A DNA stretch of 35,608 bases from Chitinophagales bacterium (lineage in GTDB: Bacteria; Bacteroidota; Bacteroidia; Chitinophagales; Saprospiraceae): the NCBI GenBank assembly GCA_013298845.1, contig JAAFJN010000020.1, positions 1 to 35,608 on the forward strand. Reading direction: 5' to 3'. The translations under genes and the position numbers were made by a program. Under the pieces are notes generated by a model that made no database searches, was not told where the DNA came from, and worked only from the letters and a program-made list of their open reading frames with translations. Positions 17,665 through 25,020 of the stretch are shown here, in pieces. How positions within the stretch are numbered: position 1 is the first letter of the stretch; every line of letters begins with the position of its first letter.

Positions 17665-18384
17665 CTATTTATTCACCACAAACCGCATGGCTAAAACCCC
17701 GTTCTCCGCACGCCGCCACAATTTTTGGGTATCGGGGTGGCTGCCGTGCCACAAATCACACTCGAATTTCAGGGTAATATCGTACATAATGACGTCGTCC
17801 ACCTCAACACGTTCGTACCGTGTACACTCCAGATACGGGTTTTTTTGTGCTCCAAAACCACTTTCAAAACCGGCATCTGAGGTTCCATTTTCGCACCTGA
17901 ACGCAACGCGGAGGTCGAATACATCGGCGGTATCGGCGGGATTGTATCGGTCGCGCAGGCGAAGCGGGCCAACCTTAAAGGCATTGTCCAACATTTCGCG
18001 GGGCGTGGCGGGGTTGGGTGATAAATAGTTGAACAAAAGTTTGGGTTCCTCGTCCTTGGCCATCTCGGTATGCCGGATACCAAATTCCAAACAATACCGC
18101 CCGATGGCTTGACCCAGTTCGAGGGTAGGGCCATTGGTAATCACAATCAGCGTTGGCCGGTAATAACTGATATAATCATTGCTGCCCGCCGAACGGCAAA
18201 AGTCTTTGCCATCGAGTTGACAACTAAAATATTCTTCGCCGAGGGTGCCGTCACAGTCAAATTTGCTATTGGAGTAACATTCACCTAACTTAGGATCTGT
18301 GGAATAGAGTTCTTCCGCTTCATTGTCTTTTTTGCAACCCAAAATTGCGATTAGAAACAAGGAAAAAATGAGTATTTTTTTCAT
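17665..18384 (-). CDS. Disulfide-type lipoprotein, tandem copy A
   Basis: 239 residues from ATG 18384 (MKKILIFSLFLIAILGC; lipid Cys17). A start at 18411 would add nine residues in front of a complete signal, so I do not use it. The mature part has eight cysteines (36, 44, 55, 63, 98, 164, 187, 209), an even number that suits four disulfides. No named domain is recognised; the sequence looks mostly beta. Conserved points with the neighbouring lipoproteins are the F-x-C-x-G start, a YLSP turn in the middle, and a late YD(I/V)T-x-(K/E)F strand with a basic VVNK/TVKK end. It is about 95 percent identical to the next upstream gene except for a block just after the lipid Cys. Confidence 0.72.
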   Translation of the reverse strand: MKKILIFSLFLIAILGCKKDNEAEELYSTDPKLGECYSNSKFDCDGTLGEEYFSCQLDGKDFCRSAGSNDYISYYRPTLIVITNGPTLELGQAIGRYCLEFGIRHTEMAKDEEPKLLFNYLSPNPATPREMLDNAFKVGPLRLRDRYNPADTADVFDLRVAFRCENGTSDAGFESGFGAQKNPYLECTRYERVEVDDVIMYDITLKFECDLWHGSHPDTQKLWRRAENGVLAMRFVVNK

Positions 18385-18428
18385 GATCGTGTAAATGGTT
18401 AAACGCCACAACGAAAGGTTAAATAGGT

Positions 18429-18467: not shown

Positions 18468-19184
18468 TTATTTGTTCACCACAAACCGCATGGCCAAAAC
18501 CCCGTTCTCCACACGCCGCCACAATTTTTGGGTATCGGGGTGGCTGCCGCGCCACAAATCACACTCGAATTTCAGGGTAATATCGTACATAATGACGTCG
18601 TCCACCTCAACACGTTCGTACCGTATACACTCCAGATACGGGTTTCTTTGCGCCCCAAAACCACTTTCAAAACCGGCATCAATAGTTCCATTTTCGCACC
18701 TGAACGCAACGCGGAGGTCGAATACATCGGCGGTATCGGCGGGATTGTATCGGTCGCGCAGGCGAAGTGGACCGACTTTAAAGGCATTATCCAACATTTC
18801 GCGGGGCGTGGCGGGGTTGGGTGATAAATAGTTGAATACGAGTTTGGGTTCCTCGTCCTTGGCCATCTCGGTATGCCGGATACCAAATTCCAAACAATAC
18901 CGCCCGATGGCTTGACTGAGTTCGAGGGTAGGGCCATTGGTAATCACAATCAGTGTTGGCCGGTAATAACTGACATAATCATTGCTGCCCGCCGAACGGC
19001 AAAAGTCCTTGCCATCGAGTTGACAACTAAAATATTCTTCGCCGAGGGTGCCATCGCAGTCAAATTTACTATTGGAGTAACATTCCACCAAAGCAGGAGT
19101 ACGAAAAAATTCTTCCGCTTCATTGTCTTTTTTGCAACCCAAGATTGCGATTAGAAACAAGGAAAAAATGAGTATTTTTTTCAT
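18468..19184 (-). CDS. Disulfide-type lipoprotein, tandem copy B
   Basis: 238 residues from ATG 19184 with the same signal peptide and lipid Cys17 as copy A, and the same eight mature cysteines shifted by one residue. Outside the block right after the lipid anchor there are only eight amino-acid changes from copy A. In that block copy A reads ELYSTDPKLGECY and copy B EFFRTPALVECY, one residue shorter. Both proteins are expected at the outer membrane, possibly surface-exposed, because the anchor is followed by Lys-Lys-Asp and acidic residues. The function is unknown. The gene lies 83 bp downstream of the related lipoprotein gene 19268-20053, with a GC-rich hairpin in between. Confidence 0.72.
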   Translation of the reverse strand: MKKILIFSLFLIAILGCKKDNEAEEFFRTPALVECYSNSKFDCDGTLGEEYFSCQLDGKDFCRSAGSNDYVSYYRPTLIVITNGPTLELSQAIGRYCLEFGIRHTEMAKDEEPKLVFNYLSPNPATPREMLDNAFKVGPLRLRDRYNPADTADVFDLRVAFRCENGTIDAGFESGFGAQRNPYLECIRYERVEVDDVIMYDITLKFECDLWRGSHPDTQKLWRRVENGVLAMRFVVNK

Positions 19185-19233
19185 GATCGTGTAAATGGTT
19201 AAACGCCACAACGAATGCTGGTTAAGAAAGCGT

Positions 19234-19267: not shown

Positions 19268-20053
19268 TTATTTTTTTACCGTAAAGGTTCCCTTCATTTT
19301 ACCGTCTTTCATGGTGGTCCAAAGGTGGGCACCCGTTCCAGAGTACAATTCGCCGGTGAATTCAAAAGTGACATCGTACAAAAAGTGATCGGAAAATTCC
19401 CGTTTTTTCACCTCTGCTATTTTTACGTGCGCCCCAGGCGATTGTGGACCATTGGCTGAAAGAAGAAACTCATTCCATCCAACGGAGGAACCCTGAACAC
19501 TGAAGGATGTCCGGTAAATGATAGATACATCAATTGTCCAATAGGCGTGGGGATCATTTTTGACTTCCTGGTCTTTGTTGATGGGGTATGCCTTACCCAC
19601 CTCCAATACACTATCCAGCAAATAATCTAAGTTATGTTGGTGCGGAGACAAATAGAGCAAACTAAAAACGACTTCGTTGTCCAACTCCTTGTGTTCCAGA
19701 ACGTAATTTTGGGAGTACTTATTAATCATGGCATATGGGTATTCCATGTCCCCCACGGCAAACACATGATTAAATCCCAATGAAGTTACTCCGTTGGCAC
19801 CGACGTTCACGGATTGGGAAACATAGGCGAAGGAGGTATCTTTATCCTGCGCATTGATACAAAAAGGGCCGGAATCCAGGGAGGCTGACAGGTAATTTTC
19901 GGCGTAAATGCCTTGGCAGCCGAAATCGGCTTTTTGAAGGGCATCCCATCGTTCAGGGGCAAACCAGTCTTTGCGTGGATCTTCTTTGGGTTCTTTTTTG
20001 CAGGCGGTGAGGAGCAGGGCCAAAGTTGCTGTCAAATAAAAAAAGTATCTCAT
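19268..20053 (-). CDS. Lipoprotein related to the tandem pair
   Basis: 261 residues from ATG 20053 (MRYFFYLTATLALLLTAC; lipid Cys18); the ATG at 20110 would add 19 non-signal residues. The mature part has only two further cysteines (46 and 65). It aligns with the tandem lipoproteins: GCQGIYAENYLSASLDSGPFC against DCDGTLGEEYFSCQLDGKDFC, then YLSPHQ and LDSVLEVG against YLSPNP and LDNAFKVG, and at the end YDVTFEFTGELYSG...FTVKK against YDITLKFECDLWHG...FVVNK. It is thus a diverged founder or sister of the pair, with most disulfides missing. The function is unknown. A 10-bp palindrome lies 52 bp upstream of the start. Confidence 0.7.
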   Translation of the reverse strand: MRYFFYLTATLALLLTACKKEPKEDPRKDWFAPERWDALQKADFGCQGIYAENYLSASLDSGPFCINAQDKDTSFAYVSQSVNVGANGVTSLGFNHVFAVGDMEYPYAMINKYSQNYVLEHKELDNEVVFSLLYLSPHQHNLDYLLDSVLEVGKAYPINKDQEVKNDPHAYWTIDVSIIYRTSFSVQGSSVGWNEFLLSANGPQSPGAHVKIAEVKKREFSDHFLYDVTFEFTGELYSGTGAHLWTTMKDGKMKGTFTVKK

Positions 20054-20188: not shown

Positions 20189-21415
20189 CTACCGTAACAA
20201 AGTTTCCAATAACACTAACAATGCTTTTTCACTTTCCTCGGAATACCCCTTTTCGATATGAACAACCCGTCGCGTCAGCCGATTCACTACTATCAATTTG
20301 GGGTATCCGGTAATCTTTATCCGGTCTGCGGTGGCACGTTCCGTAAAGGCAATAAAAAAGGAATACCCATACTTCTGTTTGTATTGCTTGATTAGAACGT
20401 CATATTGCTTATCAATGGGGTTGACTCCTACAATGGCCACATCTTTATCGTTCAGGGCCCTTGCCGTGCGGTCAAGGCCGGGCATGGCCAAGTTACAGGG
20501 AGCACAGGAGCGGTACCAAAAGTCCAACACTAAGTAACGCTGTTTAAAAGCCGTAAATAGCGGGAGTGTGTCGCCCGTTTCAAGGCGCACTATAAAATCC
20601 GGAATGCTATCGCCCAATGCTACTTCCAATTTGTCTCTTCGCCTGTTTTGATCCATTTCTTCCACATGATAACCTTGTGTAAGCATTTTTTGCACATCGT
20701 ATGCTTGCTCAAATGAGGCATTATCTGGTAATCGTCGAATAGGGGAATACTGCGTCTCGTCAAACTGAACGTGTCCGTCCTGCTGGTCAGCCCATGTGCG
20801 TATCCGGCGCGGTGTATAGGTATCCGGGTAAAGCAGCCACTGCTCGGTGTAGATCATAGAGTCCTTTGCTGTGGGGGTGATTTTCATACCGATGGGAAAT
20901 GCCCTGCGACGCAGTAATTCAATAAAAATGGTATCGTTCAATAAAAACTCGCCAACCTGTGCGATACCCCACTTTTCCGGGTCAACGGGAGCATGCCCCC
21001 GATTGGTCAAGATGGGTAGCGACAAAACCCCCGAGCGAAGGGCGTTGCCTTTGCTGATATAGGTGATCAGTCCTTTTTTCTGGCGCACTTGTTCGACCGC
21101 AACCGTGGAATCTTTTCGTACAAAAAAATAGACTTCGCCATCGCTGCCCTGCATAGGGCCACCTCCGGCGGGCCAGAGCACGAAACGTGCAAGTGTATCC
21201 CCAAGGCCGCCACCGGTTTTGAAATACCTAACCAGACCGGAATGGGTATTGGTATCTGCTTTGAGCAGGCTTTTGGACTTGTATACGGCCCTATATTCGC
21301 CTTTTTCTATAGAGAGCAGCGATTGGTTCATATGCTCAATGACTGCCTGTGGCGTAATTTGAGCAGATATAGGTATCGAAACTGTCAATATAATAAAAAA
21401 AAACAACTTTTTCAA
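20189..21415 (-). CDS. TlpA-like thiol-disulfide oxidoreductase, paralogue 1
   Basis: 408 residues with a signal peptide (MKKLFFFIILTVSIPISAQ). Residues 25-255 are a beta-rich domain of unrecognised family (IEKGEYRAVYKSKSLLKADT, then YPDTYTPRRIRTW), loosely recalling LolA/lipoprotein-carrier folds. Residues 268-405 are a TlpA/thioredoxin domain: GDSIPDF entry, active-site Cys304-Ala-Pro-Cys307 in FWYRSCAPCN, and the cis-proline loop TGYPKLIVV. It should act in the periplasm as a reductase or oxidase of protein disulfides. The next gene upstream is a paralogue, and the first gene of the unit encodes a cysteine-rich lipoprotein. No DsbD-like electron donor is present in the window. Confidence 0.85.
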   Translation of the reverse strand: MKKLFFFIILTVSIPISAQITPQAVIEHMNQSLLSIEKGEYRAVYKSKSLLKADTNTHSGLVRYFKTGGGLGDTLARFVLWPAGGGPMQGSDGEVYFFVRKDSTVAVEQVRQKKGLITYISKGNALRSGVLSLPILTNRGHAPVDPEKWGIAQVGEFLLNDTIFIELLRRRAFPIGMKITPTAKDSMIYTEQWLLYPDTYTPRRIRTWADQQDGHVQFDETQYSPIRRLPDNASFEQAYDVQKMLTQGYHVEEMDQNRRRDKLEVALGDSIPDFIVRLETGDTLPLFTAFKQRYLVLDFWYRSCAPCNLAMPGLDRTARALNDKDVAIVGVNPIDKQYDVLIKQYKQKYGYSFFIAFTERATADRIKITGYPKLIVVNRLTRRVVHIEKGYSEESEKALLVLLETLLR

Positions 21416-21440
21416 AATATTTTTTACTTTAAGAATAAAA

Positions 21441-22673
21441 TTATTTTAACAAGTTCTCCAAATACCGCAGGAGTTCCGCTTCTTCATGCTCCCCGTACCC
21501 CTTGGCTAAGCGGATTACCCTACGGGTTTGACCGTCCACCACCATAAGTGTGGGGTAAGCCCTTATTCTCAATTGCTCTGCGACAGTCTTGTCGGCAAAA
21601 GCGATTTTGAAGGAATACCCATACTGTTGTTTGTATTGTTTAATTAGTGCTTCGTATTGCTTATCAATAGGGTTAATGCCTACAATGGCCACATCTTCTC
21701 TAGTCAGTACCCTTGCCGTGCGGTTAAGTCCAGGCATGGCCAAGTTGCATGGCGCACAAGCACGATACCAAAAGTCAAGTACTAAATAATGCTGTTTGAA
21801 CGCTGTAAACAAAGGAAGTGTGTCGCCAGTTTCAACGCGCACCGTAAAATCTGGGATACTGTCACCGATACTCAATCTCTGTGCAGGTTGCGCCATAGAA
21901 AGAGTTTTTTCAACAAACTGATAACCTTGCTTTAGAAAGTGGGCTAAACTATTCTCTAAGTCTTGTAGTTCGAGGGAATCAGGTAATCTTGCGATCGGGC
22001 TATAGTTGATTTCATCAAAATAAGTTAAGTTATTTCCACGATCAATAATTAATCTAATGCGACGTGGCGTAAAAACATCAGGGTAAAACAACCATTGTTC
22101 AGTTATATGCATAGAATCGCAATCCAGTGGAGTCAACCTCTGGCTGTTTTTACTAAAACTACTTTTGTTCAAGGCTACGAATAAGGTATCATTTAATTGA
22201 AAAGGCTCTATATTCCAACCTTCAAAATCAGCCGGATTAAGGGGGAGATATTCTTTATTAGTTAAAATAGGCACTGACAAAATGTGAGTTCTCTCTGAAT
22301 TATAATGGGAAATATAATCTTTAATGCCTTTTTTTTGTGCTGGATTATATTGAATAATTTGTTTTTGATCTTGGTTTACAGTCCAAAATAACACACCGTC
22401 AAAACCTTTTGGAATTGTGCTTGTTGGCCAAAAGGTAAACCTGGCGATAGAATCGCCAGGCCCACCTTGGGTTTTGCAATATTGGACGCTTCCTCCACCT
22501 ATTGATGTATCTGCATCAAAATACGATTTGTATTTGTAGTAAACGCTATATGATCCTTTTTCGATGGCAAGGAGTTGTGTATTTACCTTTTCTATAAAGG
22601 TAAATACAGTCTCTTGAGCGTTTAGAGTGGTGCTGAAAATCGCTAAAAAAAGTGCCAATATCTTATTCGACAT
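21441..22673 (-). CDS. TlpA-like thiol-disulfide oxidoreductase, paralogue 2
   Basis: 410 residues with the layout of the next gene: signal peptide (MSNKILALFLAIFSTTLNAQ), an N-terminal domain at about 25-258 (IEKGSYSVYYKYKSYFDADT, YPDVFTPRRIRL), and a TlpA/thioredoxin domain at about 268-408 with Cys306-Ala-Pro-Cys309 in FWYRACAPCN and cis-proline RAYPTLMVV. The redox domain is about three-quarters identical to paralogue 1, the N-terminal domain much less (roughly 40 percent by eye). It starts 4 bp after the stop of the cysteine-rich lipoprotein gene, which indicates cotranscription, and ends 25 bp before paralogue 1 starts. It looks more AT-rich than the flanking receptor genes. Confidence 0.87.
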   Translation of the reverse strand: MSNKILALFLAIFSTTLNAQETVFTFIEKVNTQLLAIEKGSYSVYYKYKSYFDADTSIGGGSVQYCKTQGGPGDSIARFTFWPTSTIPKGFDGVLFWTVNQDQKQIIQYNPAQKKGIKDYISHYNSERTHILSVPILTNKEYLPLNPADFEGWNIEPFQLNDTLFVALNKSSFSKNSQRLTPLDCDSMHITEQWLFYPDVFTPRRIRLIIDRGNNLTYFDEINYSPIARLPDSLELQDLENSLAHFLKQGYQFVEKTLSMAQPAQRLSIGDSIPDFTVRVETGDTLPLFTAFKQHYLVLDFWYRACAPCNLAMPGLNRTARVLTREDVAIVGINPIDKQYEALIKQYKQQYGYSFKIAFADKTVAEQLRIRAYPTLMVVDGQTRRVIRLAKGYGEHEEAELLRYLENLLK

Positions 22674-22677
22674 AACT

Positions 22678-23709
22678 TTATTGGTCTATTATTGAAATAT
22701 TTGTGCCCGAAACAACCACTCCTTTTGAACTGCTTATCATATCACAATCACCGCCGTTACCACCTTCTTTACAAAAACATTCAAGGCATTTTTTTGAATT
22801 TTCTCTCATTTCGCATCCGTTGTTACACCCGTCTGCTGTACAATGGGGTTCGACTCCTCCGCTACCAATTTTTTCGGCTACTGATCCCAAGTCAAACGGG
22901 ATAAGCCAGTAAGACTGGTTAGACTCGTATGATAGTTTATTTGATATCGGGGTAGCACTTGAATAGTTATACAAATTTAAAGGGTAGTTTCCCTGAACCA
23001 ACTGCCTTGAGACTAAGACATCACCTGTTGGGGACTTTGAGATTTCAATCCTGCAATTCCCTCCGTAAAAAATACCAATGTTTGAATTGCGGTCTTCAAC
23101 TTCATAAAAGGTTACGTTTGGGGCTTCTATGATAAGCCCGAATAACTTATATGTAGCAGTATCTAAGGCTGGCATCGCCGAGGGGCACCATCTCATGTCG
23201 CAGTCTTGACAATCGCCGTCGCATACCCAATGTGTCCATTGACCATATCCTCCCCGATCTAATTCGCAATGAATTCCACCATATTCATCGTAGTTACCCT
23301 CACATTCACAATAGTATTCACCGCCGCCGCCGCCCGATCCAGTAGCAAGAATCTCAATTGGTGTTCCTCCTCCAAATGGAATGTAAAAATGTTTTACCGT
23401 TCCTAGTTCATTGATCTTGAATGACTTGTTTCCCGTTTGGGTAATATAGCCAGAATTGACAAAAACGCCGGATTTATGGGAATTTGGATCATAGTCTACA
23501 AGGCGTTTCTCTACACCTACGCTGCCATCATGGTTGCGAGTAATACTGAACTCGAATGTGGCGTCGCCAACATTAACTTTGATAATTTCTGAGGTGCGCT
23601 CAATACCTTGTATCTGCCCTGCTTGGGTTTCATCTAACTTCTGGTGCTCTTGGTTGCATGCAAAACAAACCAAGCATGAAGCCAAGATGAATAAAAATGA
23701 GTTTTTCAT
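22678..23709 (-). CDS. Cysteine-rich lipoprotein, unrecognised
   Basis: 343 residues from ATG 23709 (MKNSFLFILASCLVCFAC; lipid Cys probably 18, though LASC at 9-12 is also lipobox-like if the start is 23739). The mature protein has 15 further cysteines in two clusters: 134, 136, 148, 163, 167, 170, 175, and 290, 295, 299, 308, 311, 313, 322, with a lone Cys219 between. Cluster 1 follows a Gly-rich linker (124-130) and starts YYCECEGNYDEYGGIHCE, a spacing recalling EGF-like modules. No known domain is recognised. It is the promoter-proximal gene of an operon with two TlpA-like oxidoreductases, which are its likely folding partners. It has AT-rich base composition compared with neighbours. Confidence 0.75.
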   Translation of the reverse strand: MKNSFLFILASCLVCFACNQEHQKLDETQAGQIQGIERTSEIIKVNVGDATFEFSITRNHDGSVGVEKRLVDYDPNSHKSGVFVNSGYITQTGNKSFKINELGTVKHFYIPFGGGTPIEILATGSGGGGGEYYCECEGNYDEYGGIHCELDRGGYGQWTHWVCDGDCQDCDMRWCPSAMPALDTATYKLFGLIIEAPNVTFYEVEDRNSNIGIFYGGNCRIEISKSPTGDVLVSRQLVQGNYPLNLYNYSSATPISNKLSYESNQSYWLIPFDLGSVAEKIGSGGVEPHCTADGCNNGCEMRENSKKCLECFCKEGGNGGDCDMISSSKGVVVSGTNISIIDQ

Positions 23710-23830
23710 TTTAAGGTCTAATTTAAATAAATAATTCATAATTTTAAAAAATTTTTAAAAAAAAGTGAAAGATGTGTAAGAATCACAAGAAACTATAACT
23801 GGCCAGAAAAAATTTAAAAAATTCTTGTTA

Positions 23831-23863
23831 CAAAGATATAGGTCAGTTACCGCACCCGCCAAA
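23831..23863 (-). promoter_or_regulatory. Promoter of the cysteine-rich lipoprotein/TlpA operon
   Basis: On the minus strand TTTG (23860-23863), a 21-bp spacer and TATCTTTG (23831-23838) match the Bacteroidota promoter. It lies 121 bp upstream of the ATG at 23709, giving a long AT-rich leader in which I see nothing else. Confidence 0.65.
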
Positions 23864-23876
23864 GAAAAAACGTATG

Positions 23877-23957
23877 TATTTCTGCGCTTTTTAAAATATT
23901 TCGCAGCGATGCTGCGCTTTTTAAAATTTACGGCAATATTTCTGCGCAAAATATTTG
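23877..23957. promoter_or_regulatory. Iterated repeats between divergent promoters, likely operator
   Basis: CTGCGCTTTTTAAAAT occurs at 23882-23897 and 23912-23927 (30-bp offset). TATTTCTGCGC occurs at 23877-23887 and 23937-23947 (60-bp offset). AAAATATTT occurs twice, and CGCAGCGATGCTGCG (23902-23916) is a perfect 6-bp-arm palindrome. Offsets of 30 and 60 bp put the sites on one face of the helix, as for cooperative regulator binding. The last repeat overlaps the -33 box of the plus-strand promoter. Confidence 0.55.
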
Positions 23958-23984
23958 CCATGCGCGGGAATCCTGCTACATTTG
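23954..23984 (+). promoter_or_regulatory. Promoter of the 324-residue divergent gene
   Basis: TTTG (23954-23957), a 19-bp spacer, then TACATTTG (23977-23984): an exact match to the Bacteroidota promoter consensus. It is 61 bp upstream of the ATG at 24046. Confidence 0.75.
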
Positions 23985-24045
23985 CCTTAACATTACATTC
24001 TCTGTAATTTATTCTACCTAACAACATTCCCCCATTTGTAAAACA

Positions 24046-25020
24046 ATGGACAATCATATTCAAGTACGCCTGTTTAGTGCCATTGCTCAAAAGTTCAAAA
24101 ACCAGGCAAAAGCCATTGACGATTACCGGCTCCGCTTTCCGGGTATCGGCCAAAGCACGGCCAGGGCGCGTTTTACGGGTATCAACAGCATCACCTACGA
24201 ACACGGTATGGAAGTAGCCGCTGCCTACCGGTTGCACGACTGGGATATATGGCCGGAGGGCTGGCCACACACAAGTGGATACACAGAAGTCTCAAACCCG
24301 GGCGAAAACATCGGTCTTTACCTCGATATGCTGAACCAGGACCTGCTCAGCATCAGTAAAAATGCGCAGGCACGCCTGCACGTGGCCATCAACGATATGC
24401 CTTTTATTTTACTCAAACAGTACCGTGCGTTGGTCGGGTTTACGTTGTATTGTAGTTTGAGCCTCGAAATGAACCATAGTACCTACCGGCAATTTCGCTT
24501 TGGCGATGCATTTATGCAAGATACCCAGGTTTCCTTTTGGCTCGATCAGTGCAGGCAGGCGTTGGGAACGTACCAAAAAATCCAGGGCGTAGAATATTGG
24601 TCGCCGTATATGTTGCAGCCATTGGTACAAAAAATCAAATTGGTCAAAACCTTGGGCCTGTTTGAAGCAGAAACCATCGTTCAAAGGTTACACGAGGAGT
24701 TGGAAAAACTCGTGAACGACCTCGAAACAAAGGCGCATACGGGCAAAAAATTATTAGGCCCATTGACCGAAGGTGCGCCGGTGAAAATCTTTAACCACGC
24801 CGGTATTGTGACCGATACGTTAATTATTGCGGAGGTCAACGACGACCTCACTCCTTTTGGGTACGAAGTGCGCGGGTTATCCCATTTGCAGCGGTTGGGA
24901 AGCGCATCCGCTCAAACCAAATTAAAAGCTATTAAAAATGTCGGGCATTTTGGTGGTACCTTAGGCAGCGCGTTCGACAAGACCTTTTTTACCCAAATGC
25001 GGCAAGGTTTGGAGGCGTAA
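24046..25020 (+). CDS. Unrecognised cytoplasmic protein, possible local regulator
   Basis: 324 residues with no signal peptide or membrane segment. No named domain is recognised. Residues 8-60 are helical and could be a DNA-binding module (FSAIAQKFKNQAKAIDDYRL, then GQSTARARFTGINSITYEHG). Residues 85-240 are helical with several aromatic residues (FWLDQCRQALGTYQ, EYWSPYMLQPLVQKI). The C-terminal 70 residues look beta-rich (VTDTLIIAEVNDDLTPFGYEVRG). It is divergent from the cysteine-rich lipoprotein operon across 336 bp that hold two facing promoters and iterated repeats, the usual layout for a regulator and its target. That role is inference from position. It is followed, 119 bp later and behind a separate promoter, by a TonB receptor gene. 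Confidence 0.75.
   Translation: MDNHIQVRLFSAIAQKFKNQAKAIDDYRLRFPGIGQSTARARFTGINSITYEHGMEVAAAYRLHDWDIWPEGWPHTSGYTEVSNPGENIGLYLDMLNQDLLSISKNAQARLHVAINDMPFILLKQYRALVGFTLYCSLSLEMNHSTYRQFRFGDAFMQDTQVSFWLDQCRQALGTYQKIQGVEYWSPYMLQPLVQKIKLVKTLGLFEAETIVQRLHEELEKLVNDLETKAHTGKKLLGPLTEGAPVKIFNHAGIVTDTLIIAEVNDDLTPFGYEVRGLSHLQRLGSASAQTKLKAIKNVGHFGGTLGSAFDKTFFTQMRQGLEA

Follow-up and report, generated by a model that had tools for sequence, protein, structure and literature searches.

A cysteine-rich lipoprotein gene recurrently paired with genes for predicted LolA-fold, TlpA-type oxidoreductases in Saprospiraceae: a possible disulfide maturation module

To our knowledge, few disulfide enzymes are devoted to one secreted protein, and for most periplasmic thioredoxin-like proteins of Bacteroidota we know of no client. 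A locus in the genome of a Chitinophagales bacterium of the family Saprospiraceae raises the question of whether two such enzymes may serve the lipoprotein encoded beside them. The stretch of DNA analysed here (the window; 35,608 nucleotides) is part of contig C13 (84,883 bases) of the 6.37-Mb genome G000; genomes, contigs and loci are given by working handles (G, C and L, respectively). Its minus strand carries an open reading frame (ORF) for a cysteine-rich lipoprotein (343 aa, 18 Cys; positions 22678–23709), followed 4 bp downstream by the gene for enzyme 1 (410 aa; 21441–22673) and, 25 bp beyond that, by the gene for enzyme 2 (408 aa, TTG start; 20189–21415). The plus strand carries, divergently, the gene for a 324-aa protein (24046–25020). 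A first-pass annotation had placed the four genes and the two spacings exactly so, and all were confirmed; a single transcription unit probably spans the three minus-strand genes, which lie close together. As detailed below, the pairing of such a lipoprotein gene with such an enzyme gene recurs, in a few environmental Bacteroidota, across distantly related enzymes, and it is not obligatory.

The enzymes and their cysteine-rich neighbour

The active-site stretches of enzymes 1 and 2 read FWYRACAPC and FWYRSCAPC, respectively, and the two proteins are 49% identical. The closest relative of enzyme 2 is an unlinked copy on the same contig (C13:60 kb; 68% identity). In all, the genome encodes four such enzymes; those at C13:60 kb and C6:70 kb lack a neighbour of the six-cysteine kind described below. 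The CxxC motif was kept in 24 of 24 enzymes compared, as CAPC in both window enzymes. Both exceeded the Pfam cut-off for a thioredoxin-like domain of the AhpC-TSA/Thioredoxin_8 group; Pfam (PF00578/PF13905) and PDB sequence searches, in which the matches of enzyme 1 included ResA, recognised the C-terminal thioredoxin domain only. The cut-offs of the named NCBIfam models ResA, TlpA and DsbE were not reached (for ResA, 43 and 41 versus 170 bits), and scores so far under the cut-off mark the window enzymes as relatives, not named members, of these families.

To obtain a fold for the unrecognised N-terminal domain, enzyme 1 alone was modelled with AlphaFold on a seven-row alignment (predicted local distance difference test, pLDDT, 78; predicted template modelling score, pTM, 0.60). 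Foldseek returned for this model DsbE/ResA-like chains (E from 7.8e-10), with TlpA lower in the list, and LolA chains of several bacteria (E from 4.7e-9, probability 1.0, 215–246 columns). In the model, the N-terminal domain (∼240 aa) consists of a helix and then ∼11 strands (residues 23–255), the helix lying on a curved antiparallel β sheet. As the LolA alignments are longer than the thioredoxin domain, and considering the order of helix and strands, the N-terminal domain fits a LolA fold; the template modelling scores by target were 0.47–0.65, and the root-mean-square deviations of 6.8–8.5 speak against a close match. The enzymes are thus predicted to join a LolA-like domain to a TlpA/ResA-type thioredoxin domain. 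Sequence homology to LolA, LolB or RseB was not detected (no Pfam LolA-type match in 12 members, no LolA profile match in PDB), and a viral fold library gave thioredoxins and chance matches only.

With TlpA, ResA and CcmG (DsbE), the window enzymes share the C-terminal thioredoxin domain, a CxxC behind an aromatic pair, membership of PF00578/PF13905 and the ResA/DsbE-like fold matches. What sets them apart is the ∼240-aa LolA-like domain and the Cys-rich gene neighbour; in the window, neither a cytochrome c gene nor a copper gene was recognised beside them. With the LolA/LolB/RseB superfamily, they share the predicted N-terminal fold, but this domain lacks a sequence match and is fused to a thioredoxin domain, and its binding of lipid or protein is putative. 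DsbC and DsbG resemble them in combining a CxxC thioredoxin domain with a further, client-binding or dimerising domain; the comparison is one of layout, and an isomerase role of the window enzymes is putative. An enzyme made of a thioredoxin domain and a client-binding domain is of a known kind, and what is new is the LolA–TlpA form with a likely client. In the open-licence literature, no report of a LolA–TlpA fusion or of the six-Cys domain was found; the excerpt of PMC12419801 that names both LolA and thioredoxin concerns other genes.

The lipoprotein is likely lipidated at Cys18, behind an imperfect lipobox with Cys instead of Leu at position −3 (N-terminus read by eye). Its mature part had been described as carrying 15 cysteines in two clusters; the 15 cysteines after Cys18 stand, their arrangement being 7 + 1 + 7, that is, two clusters plus one single residue. 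The first cluster holds a six-Cys domain (23158–23394, minus strand) with the pattern CxC-x(n)-C-x(n)-C-x(2-6)-C-x(2-3)-C, whereas the second (within 22681–22944, minus strand) is rearranged: it has the same kinds of Cys parts in altered order, and so does a protein of G119. The lipoprotein matched nothing in Pfam, PHROGs or PADLOC, and its NCBIfam and PDB matches were all below threshold; the NCBIfam hits Riean_0653 and BSAP5b were set aside, as they cover the N-terminal end and score far under the cut-off. A search with the full-length protein found nothing at E ≤ 1e-3 outside its own genome among 150 genomes of the family, and nothing in plasmids, so that its family came to light only via the neighbours of related enzymes, namely a 216-aa lipoprotein in G201 and two, of 143 and 151 aa, in G054. 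Residues 48–117 and 206–275 of the window lipoprotein both align weakly to one stretch of the G201 protein (E 4e-4 and 0.012; 0.003 and 0.11 in another comparison), which suggests that its six-Cys domain may be internally duplicated. A single-sequence fold prediction of the lipoprotein was unusable (pLDDT 36).

A profile of the domain gave 22 matches in 20 genomes at E ≤ 0.1, 18 of them outside its own rows. Eight of these 18 (L100–L103, L105, L106, L114 and, through L123, L118) were read: five loci encode six-Cys proteins, L102, L103 and L114 do not, and matches L104, L107–L113, L115 and L116 lay outside the reading. Proteins with the pattern were thereby added from G251, G147, G183 and G100. 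Other families of the class contributed G457, G332, G647 and G520 (5 of 395 genomes, the own genome included). Across 21 aligned domain copies, five cysteines are invariant and one nearly so, loop lengths vary widely, and no His or acidic residue is conserved. No Pfam or NCBIfam family was reached at the curated cut-off by the whole proteins of the window, G251, G147, G183, G100, G201 and G054, and scanning the 21 copies gave as best match one copy against VWC2L_1st (E 5e-4). The Cys motif occurred in none of 650 non-overlapping ORFs (<450 aa) in 758 kb of other loci and is thus beyond chance. The six-Cys domain is therefore a previously unnamed one, with no entry in the family libraries searched.

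Recurrence of the gene pair

A broad profile of the N-terminal domain found 21 enzymes at 20 loci (the window enzymes counting as one) in 17 of 298 Saprospiraceae genomes. Directly upstream on the same strand, a six-Cys gene was present at six of these loci (five by motif, G119 by eye). The gaps between the two genes measured 4 nt in the window, 42 in G054, where two six-Cys genes lie at the enzyme locus, 59 in G201, 64 in G248, 72 in G004 and 89 in G119:C87. The six loci represent five genera (G201 and G248 belong to the same one), and their enzymes are deeply diverged. The motif was already defined when the loci of G248, G004 and G119 were reached, starting from their enzymes. The G248 protein was first spotted by eye and afterwards also found to fit the motif; that of G119 was missed by both motif and profile because its cysteine order is rearranged, like that of the window's second cluster.

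As a control, 30 other Thioredoxin_8 genes of the same 17 genomes (the best-scoring 30 of a longer list) were inspected, and none had a motif-bearing ORF in flanks of up to 1.5 kb. Compared like for like, with the five loci identified by motif, the difference yields a Fisher p of 0.007 (0.002 with all six). In 80 genomes searched with a refined profile, six-Cys genes were found in 5 of 17 enzyme-bearing genomes and in none of 63 others (p 2.6e-4); the 63 are the lowest-numbered genomes without the enzyme (G001–G069), and G100, G147, G183 and G251, which have the domain and no enzyme, were not among the 80. One further match, in the enzyme-bearing genome G016, was a 59-aa frame with a stop and was dropped as spurious. 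Apart from it, all six six-Cys genes that the profile detected in enzyme-bearing genomes adjoin the enzyme gene.

Several observations weigh against a dedicated partnership. The profile was partly trained on the linked genes and the genomes are related, so that the p values are rough. A six-Cys neighbour is missing at 14 of the 20 enzyme loci, and at 11 of 17 six-Cys loci (G251, G147, two in G183, G100, two in G457, two in G332, G647 and G520) no thioredoxin or N-domain gene was found in the flanks read. For the near-identical G457 proteins, these downstream flanks (471 and 625 bases) are too short to decide linkage; at one G183 locus, they comprise 255 bases, and the whole G183 genome gave no enzyme. 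Neither gene is therefore rarely found alone, as an obligatory enzyme–client pair would demand, and the pair is linked at 6 of 20 enzyme loci and 6 of 17 six-Cys loci. The first-pass annotation had asked whether homologues of the lipoprotein always sit beside TlpA-like genes: most show none in the flanks read, which on a plain count is the outcome it had itself named as contrary. Moreover, no clear lipobox was seen by eye in the Cys proteins of G004 and G119, and the enzyme of G004 itself looks like a lipoprotein, a pattern that makes lipid binding no constant need.

The same direction is indicated by a comparison of G201 and G127, whose enzymes are alike over 1205 columns (92.7% DNA identity) and whose upstream stretches are alike over 179 columns (84.4%). 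Between these stretches, G201 has 827 bases including the lipoprotein gene and G127 has ∼50, while the enzyme stays. The rate of change between the two enzymes was set aside, since their codons had been compared without gaps and part of the alignment seems shifted in frame. In a tree built from 24 enzymes, linkage to a six-Cys gene requires six changes, at least five of them on well-supported branches, and is unclustered (279 of 500 label shuffles did as well); three linked enzymes sit on long branches. The unclustered linked state, together with the difference between G201 and G127, shows that the two genes have been paired or parted many times, or pair up readily.

Some neighbours of the six-Cys genes were recorded in passing. 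The G201 lipoprotein gene is preceded, at a distance of ∼450 bases, by an integrase-core, transposase-like ORF (L079:10824-11249), which may bear on gain or loss of that gene. In G100 (L122:7096-7353) and G183 (L121:1222-1503), a short ORF (85 and 93 aa, respectively) directly precedes the six-Cys gene; the two are alike by eye, and both match a Pfam helix-turn-helix, the L121 ORF above the cut-off and the L122 ORF short of it. In G332 (L133:6856-14493), a radical SAM protein and a C39-peptidase ABC transporter are encoded ∼3 kb from the six-Cys gene, possibly a locus for export of a modified peptide. Small secreted proteins sharing a similar stretch (by eye) are encoded near the six-Cys genes of G004 (L169:7848-8264) and G647 (L135:6469-6867).

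The divergent gene and the downstream lipoproteins

The protein encoded opposite the lipoprotein has no signal peptide to the eye and matches no Pfam family over the cut-off. Its N-terminus looks helix-turn-helix-like by eye, for which Pfam gives no match. Among 14 genomes searched, its family (∼330 aa) is represented by four proteins in the own genome and a single one in G208; at E ≤ 1e-3, none was found in the other 12, which include G004, G054, G119, G201 and G248. As it is absent from the other paired genomes, the divergent family is not part of the recurrent pair, a further point against a module that includes it. All five members lie opposite a lipoprotein gene (in the window, at C89, C27 and C1, and at G208:C65; lipobox by eye), and this constancy supports a role in controlling lipoprotein loci. 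The lipoproteins they face differ; members of the 250-aa family described below occur at C1 and, behind the first gene, at C27. The family may thus represent regulators of variable lipoprotein operons.

Facing promoters had also been proposed, and a Bacteroidota-type pattern was indeed found once per strand in the 306-bp gap before the divergent gene: one promoter-like site points toward the lipoprotein and enzyme genes (23831–23863, minus strand), the other toward the divergent gene (23954–23984, plus strand). The consensus used, TTTG-N17-22-TANNTTTG, is what we take to be that of Bacteroidota. In the whole window, the pattern matched five times versus 1.66 expected, and at least five matches arose in 3 of 100 shuffles. 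GC content is 42% in the lipoprotein gene, 40% in that of enzyme 1 and 32% in the gap, versus 48.5% in the window. Positions 22001–24000, centred on these three, have 38% GC, which may reflect recent acquisition.

Downstream of enzyme 2, three genes on the minus strand encode lipoproteins of a 250-aa family: a distant copy (19268–20053; profile E 7.4e-11) and two tandem near-duplicates (18468–19181 and 17665–18384, also delimited as 18468–19211 and 17665–18411) whose 95% protein identity indicates a recent duplication. A tandem of four genes of this family lies at C10 of the same genome (L082:209-3614), two copies being alike over 100 residues compared. That the enzymes might also act on these downstream lipoproteins had been suggested, and one hint in this direction was found at L011, where an enzyme gene follows a relative of the 250-aa lipoproteins by 42 nt. 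The idea derived from it, that the association is really with the 250-aa lipoproteins, was not borne out: the family occurs in 21 of 298 genomes, of which only G000 (narrow enzyme list), or G000 and G271 (broad list), bear the enzyme, leaving 19 of 21 without. Where flanks were retrieved around family members of other genomes, they contained a thioredoxin gene at two loci (G045 and G061). These proteins thus resemble the window lipoprotein as Cys-bearing lipoproteins beside such an enzyme, in the window and at L011, but show no link to the six-Cys domain.

What the pairing may mean

The genes, their recurrent order and, as a prediction, the fold are established; from them we infer the client, the direction of the reaction and its place in the cell. 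The reading that we favour, at a probability of about 0.4, is that the unit makes a six-Cys lipoprotein and two thiol-disulfide oxidoreductases biased toward that lipoprotein as their client. Judging from its N-terminus, the lipoprotein would be exported and lipidated, and its Cys domains, with six conserved cysteines and loops of very unequal length, would fold with disulfides. The predicted LolA-fold domain would be the client-binding part of the enzyme, and the CAPC domain would undo and remake incorrect disulfides, its role being probably that of a reductase or isomerase that draws on a DsbD-like protein; this direction is suggested by the logic of the family and by a gene for a DsbD-like protein at C34 of the own genome. 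Two enzymes for one lipoprotein with two Cys regions would fit such a scheme, which does not require them. Control of the unit may fall to the divergent product, and its relatives may play the same part for other lipoprotein loci in the genus.

The earlier proposal that the enzymes form or reshuffle the disulfides of the lipoprotein thus gains from the pairs in six loci of five genera and from both controls (0 of 30 and 0 of 63), and it loses from the majority of loci being unlinked. The accompanying notion of a self-contained system had to be given up, given the DsbD-like protein and 23 Thioredoxin_8 matches (such enzymes included) among the matches listed for the own genome. Six-Cys proteins without the enzyme would rely on the general thiol machinery, so that the enzyme would be an aid, not a need.

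The pairing could also reflect hitch-hiking of a labile surface-protein gene that was repeatedly inserted or lost before a general-purpose enzyme, with no functional tie. Such mobility would suit the presence and absence of the gene between collinear flanks in G201 and G127, the integrase-core ORF a few hundred bases upstream in G201, the unlinked majority of both families and the scatter of the linked state on the enzyme tree, as well as the tandem near-duplicates downstream, the four related genes in tandem at C10 and the low GC content of lipoprotein gene, enzyme 1 gene and gap. However, none of 30 other thioredoxin-like genes has a six-Cys neighbour, the six-Cys genes detected in enzyme-bearing genomes adjoin the enzyme, and all six pairs share the same order, with the Cys gene first, on the same strand and 4–89 nt away. 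Hitch-hiking therefore appears unlikely, if still a serious contender. A shade less probable, in our judgement, is that the enzymes keep the cysteines of the domain reduced for metal binding. TlpA reduces the copper site of cytochrome oxidase, the ResA/DsbE/TlpA group is known for reducing metal- or haem-site thiols, and a CxC motif is able to bind metal; the C-terminal domain of enzyme 1 is nearest to ResA/DsbE-like structures, with TlpA further down, and the six-Cys domain contains a CxC. In addition, an unpaired enzyme gene of G135 (L163:6171-10628) is followed, on the same strand, by genes for an AraC-type regulator (with a weak heavy-metal-associated domain) and a heavy-metal P-type ATPase. 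This neighbourhood points to metal for at least that enzyme, and it raises the metal reading somewhat and lowers the favoured one somewhat. Against a metal site, six cysteines kept amid widely varying loops, with no conserved His or acidic residue, look more like a disulfide core, and reading the starts of the genes around the six pairs by eye revealed no gene for Sco, CuA or cytochrome maturation (no genome search).

Finally, the LolA-like domain might escort the acyl chains of the lipoprotein to the outer membrane, the thioredoxin domain being secondary. The predicted fold and the lipobox-like N-termini of the partners in the window, G054, G201 and G248 (by eye) would agree with a carrier, whereas the partners in G004 and G119 and the lack of a LolA sequence match in Pfam or PDB would not. 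Moreover, according to an excerpt of PMC6363788, proteins with the LolA fold also function in lipid binding, in signalling and in catalysis; as the superfamily is multifunctional, the fold alone is no proof of lipoprotein binding, and we give the carrier role little credence.

Taken in its widest form, the favoured reading describes a module for the client-specific maturation of disulfides: a LolA-fold domain would capture a secreted six-Cys protein and a TlpA-type domain would shape its disulfides, in pairs made and broken repeatedly and here under a divergent regulator family attending surface-lipoprotein loci; in this extended form, we put it forward more tentatively. Because gene order points to a likely client, and the fold prediction to a possible way of holding it, the pair is directly testable, and locus pairs of the G201/G127 type offer natural tests of whether the enzyme needs its partner. 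Beyond the pair itself, the finding defines a six-Cys domain new to the libraries searched and a gene family that stands divergent from lipoprotein operons.

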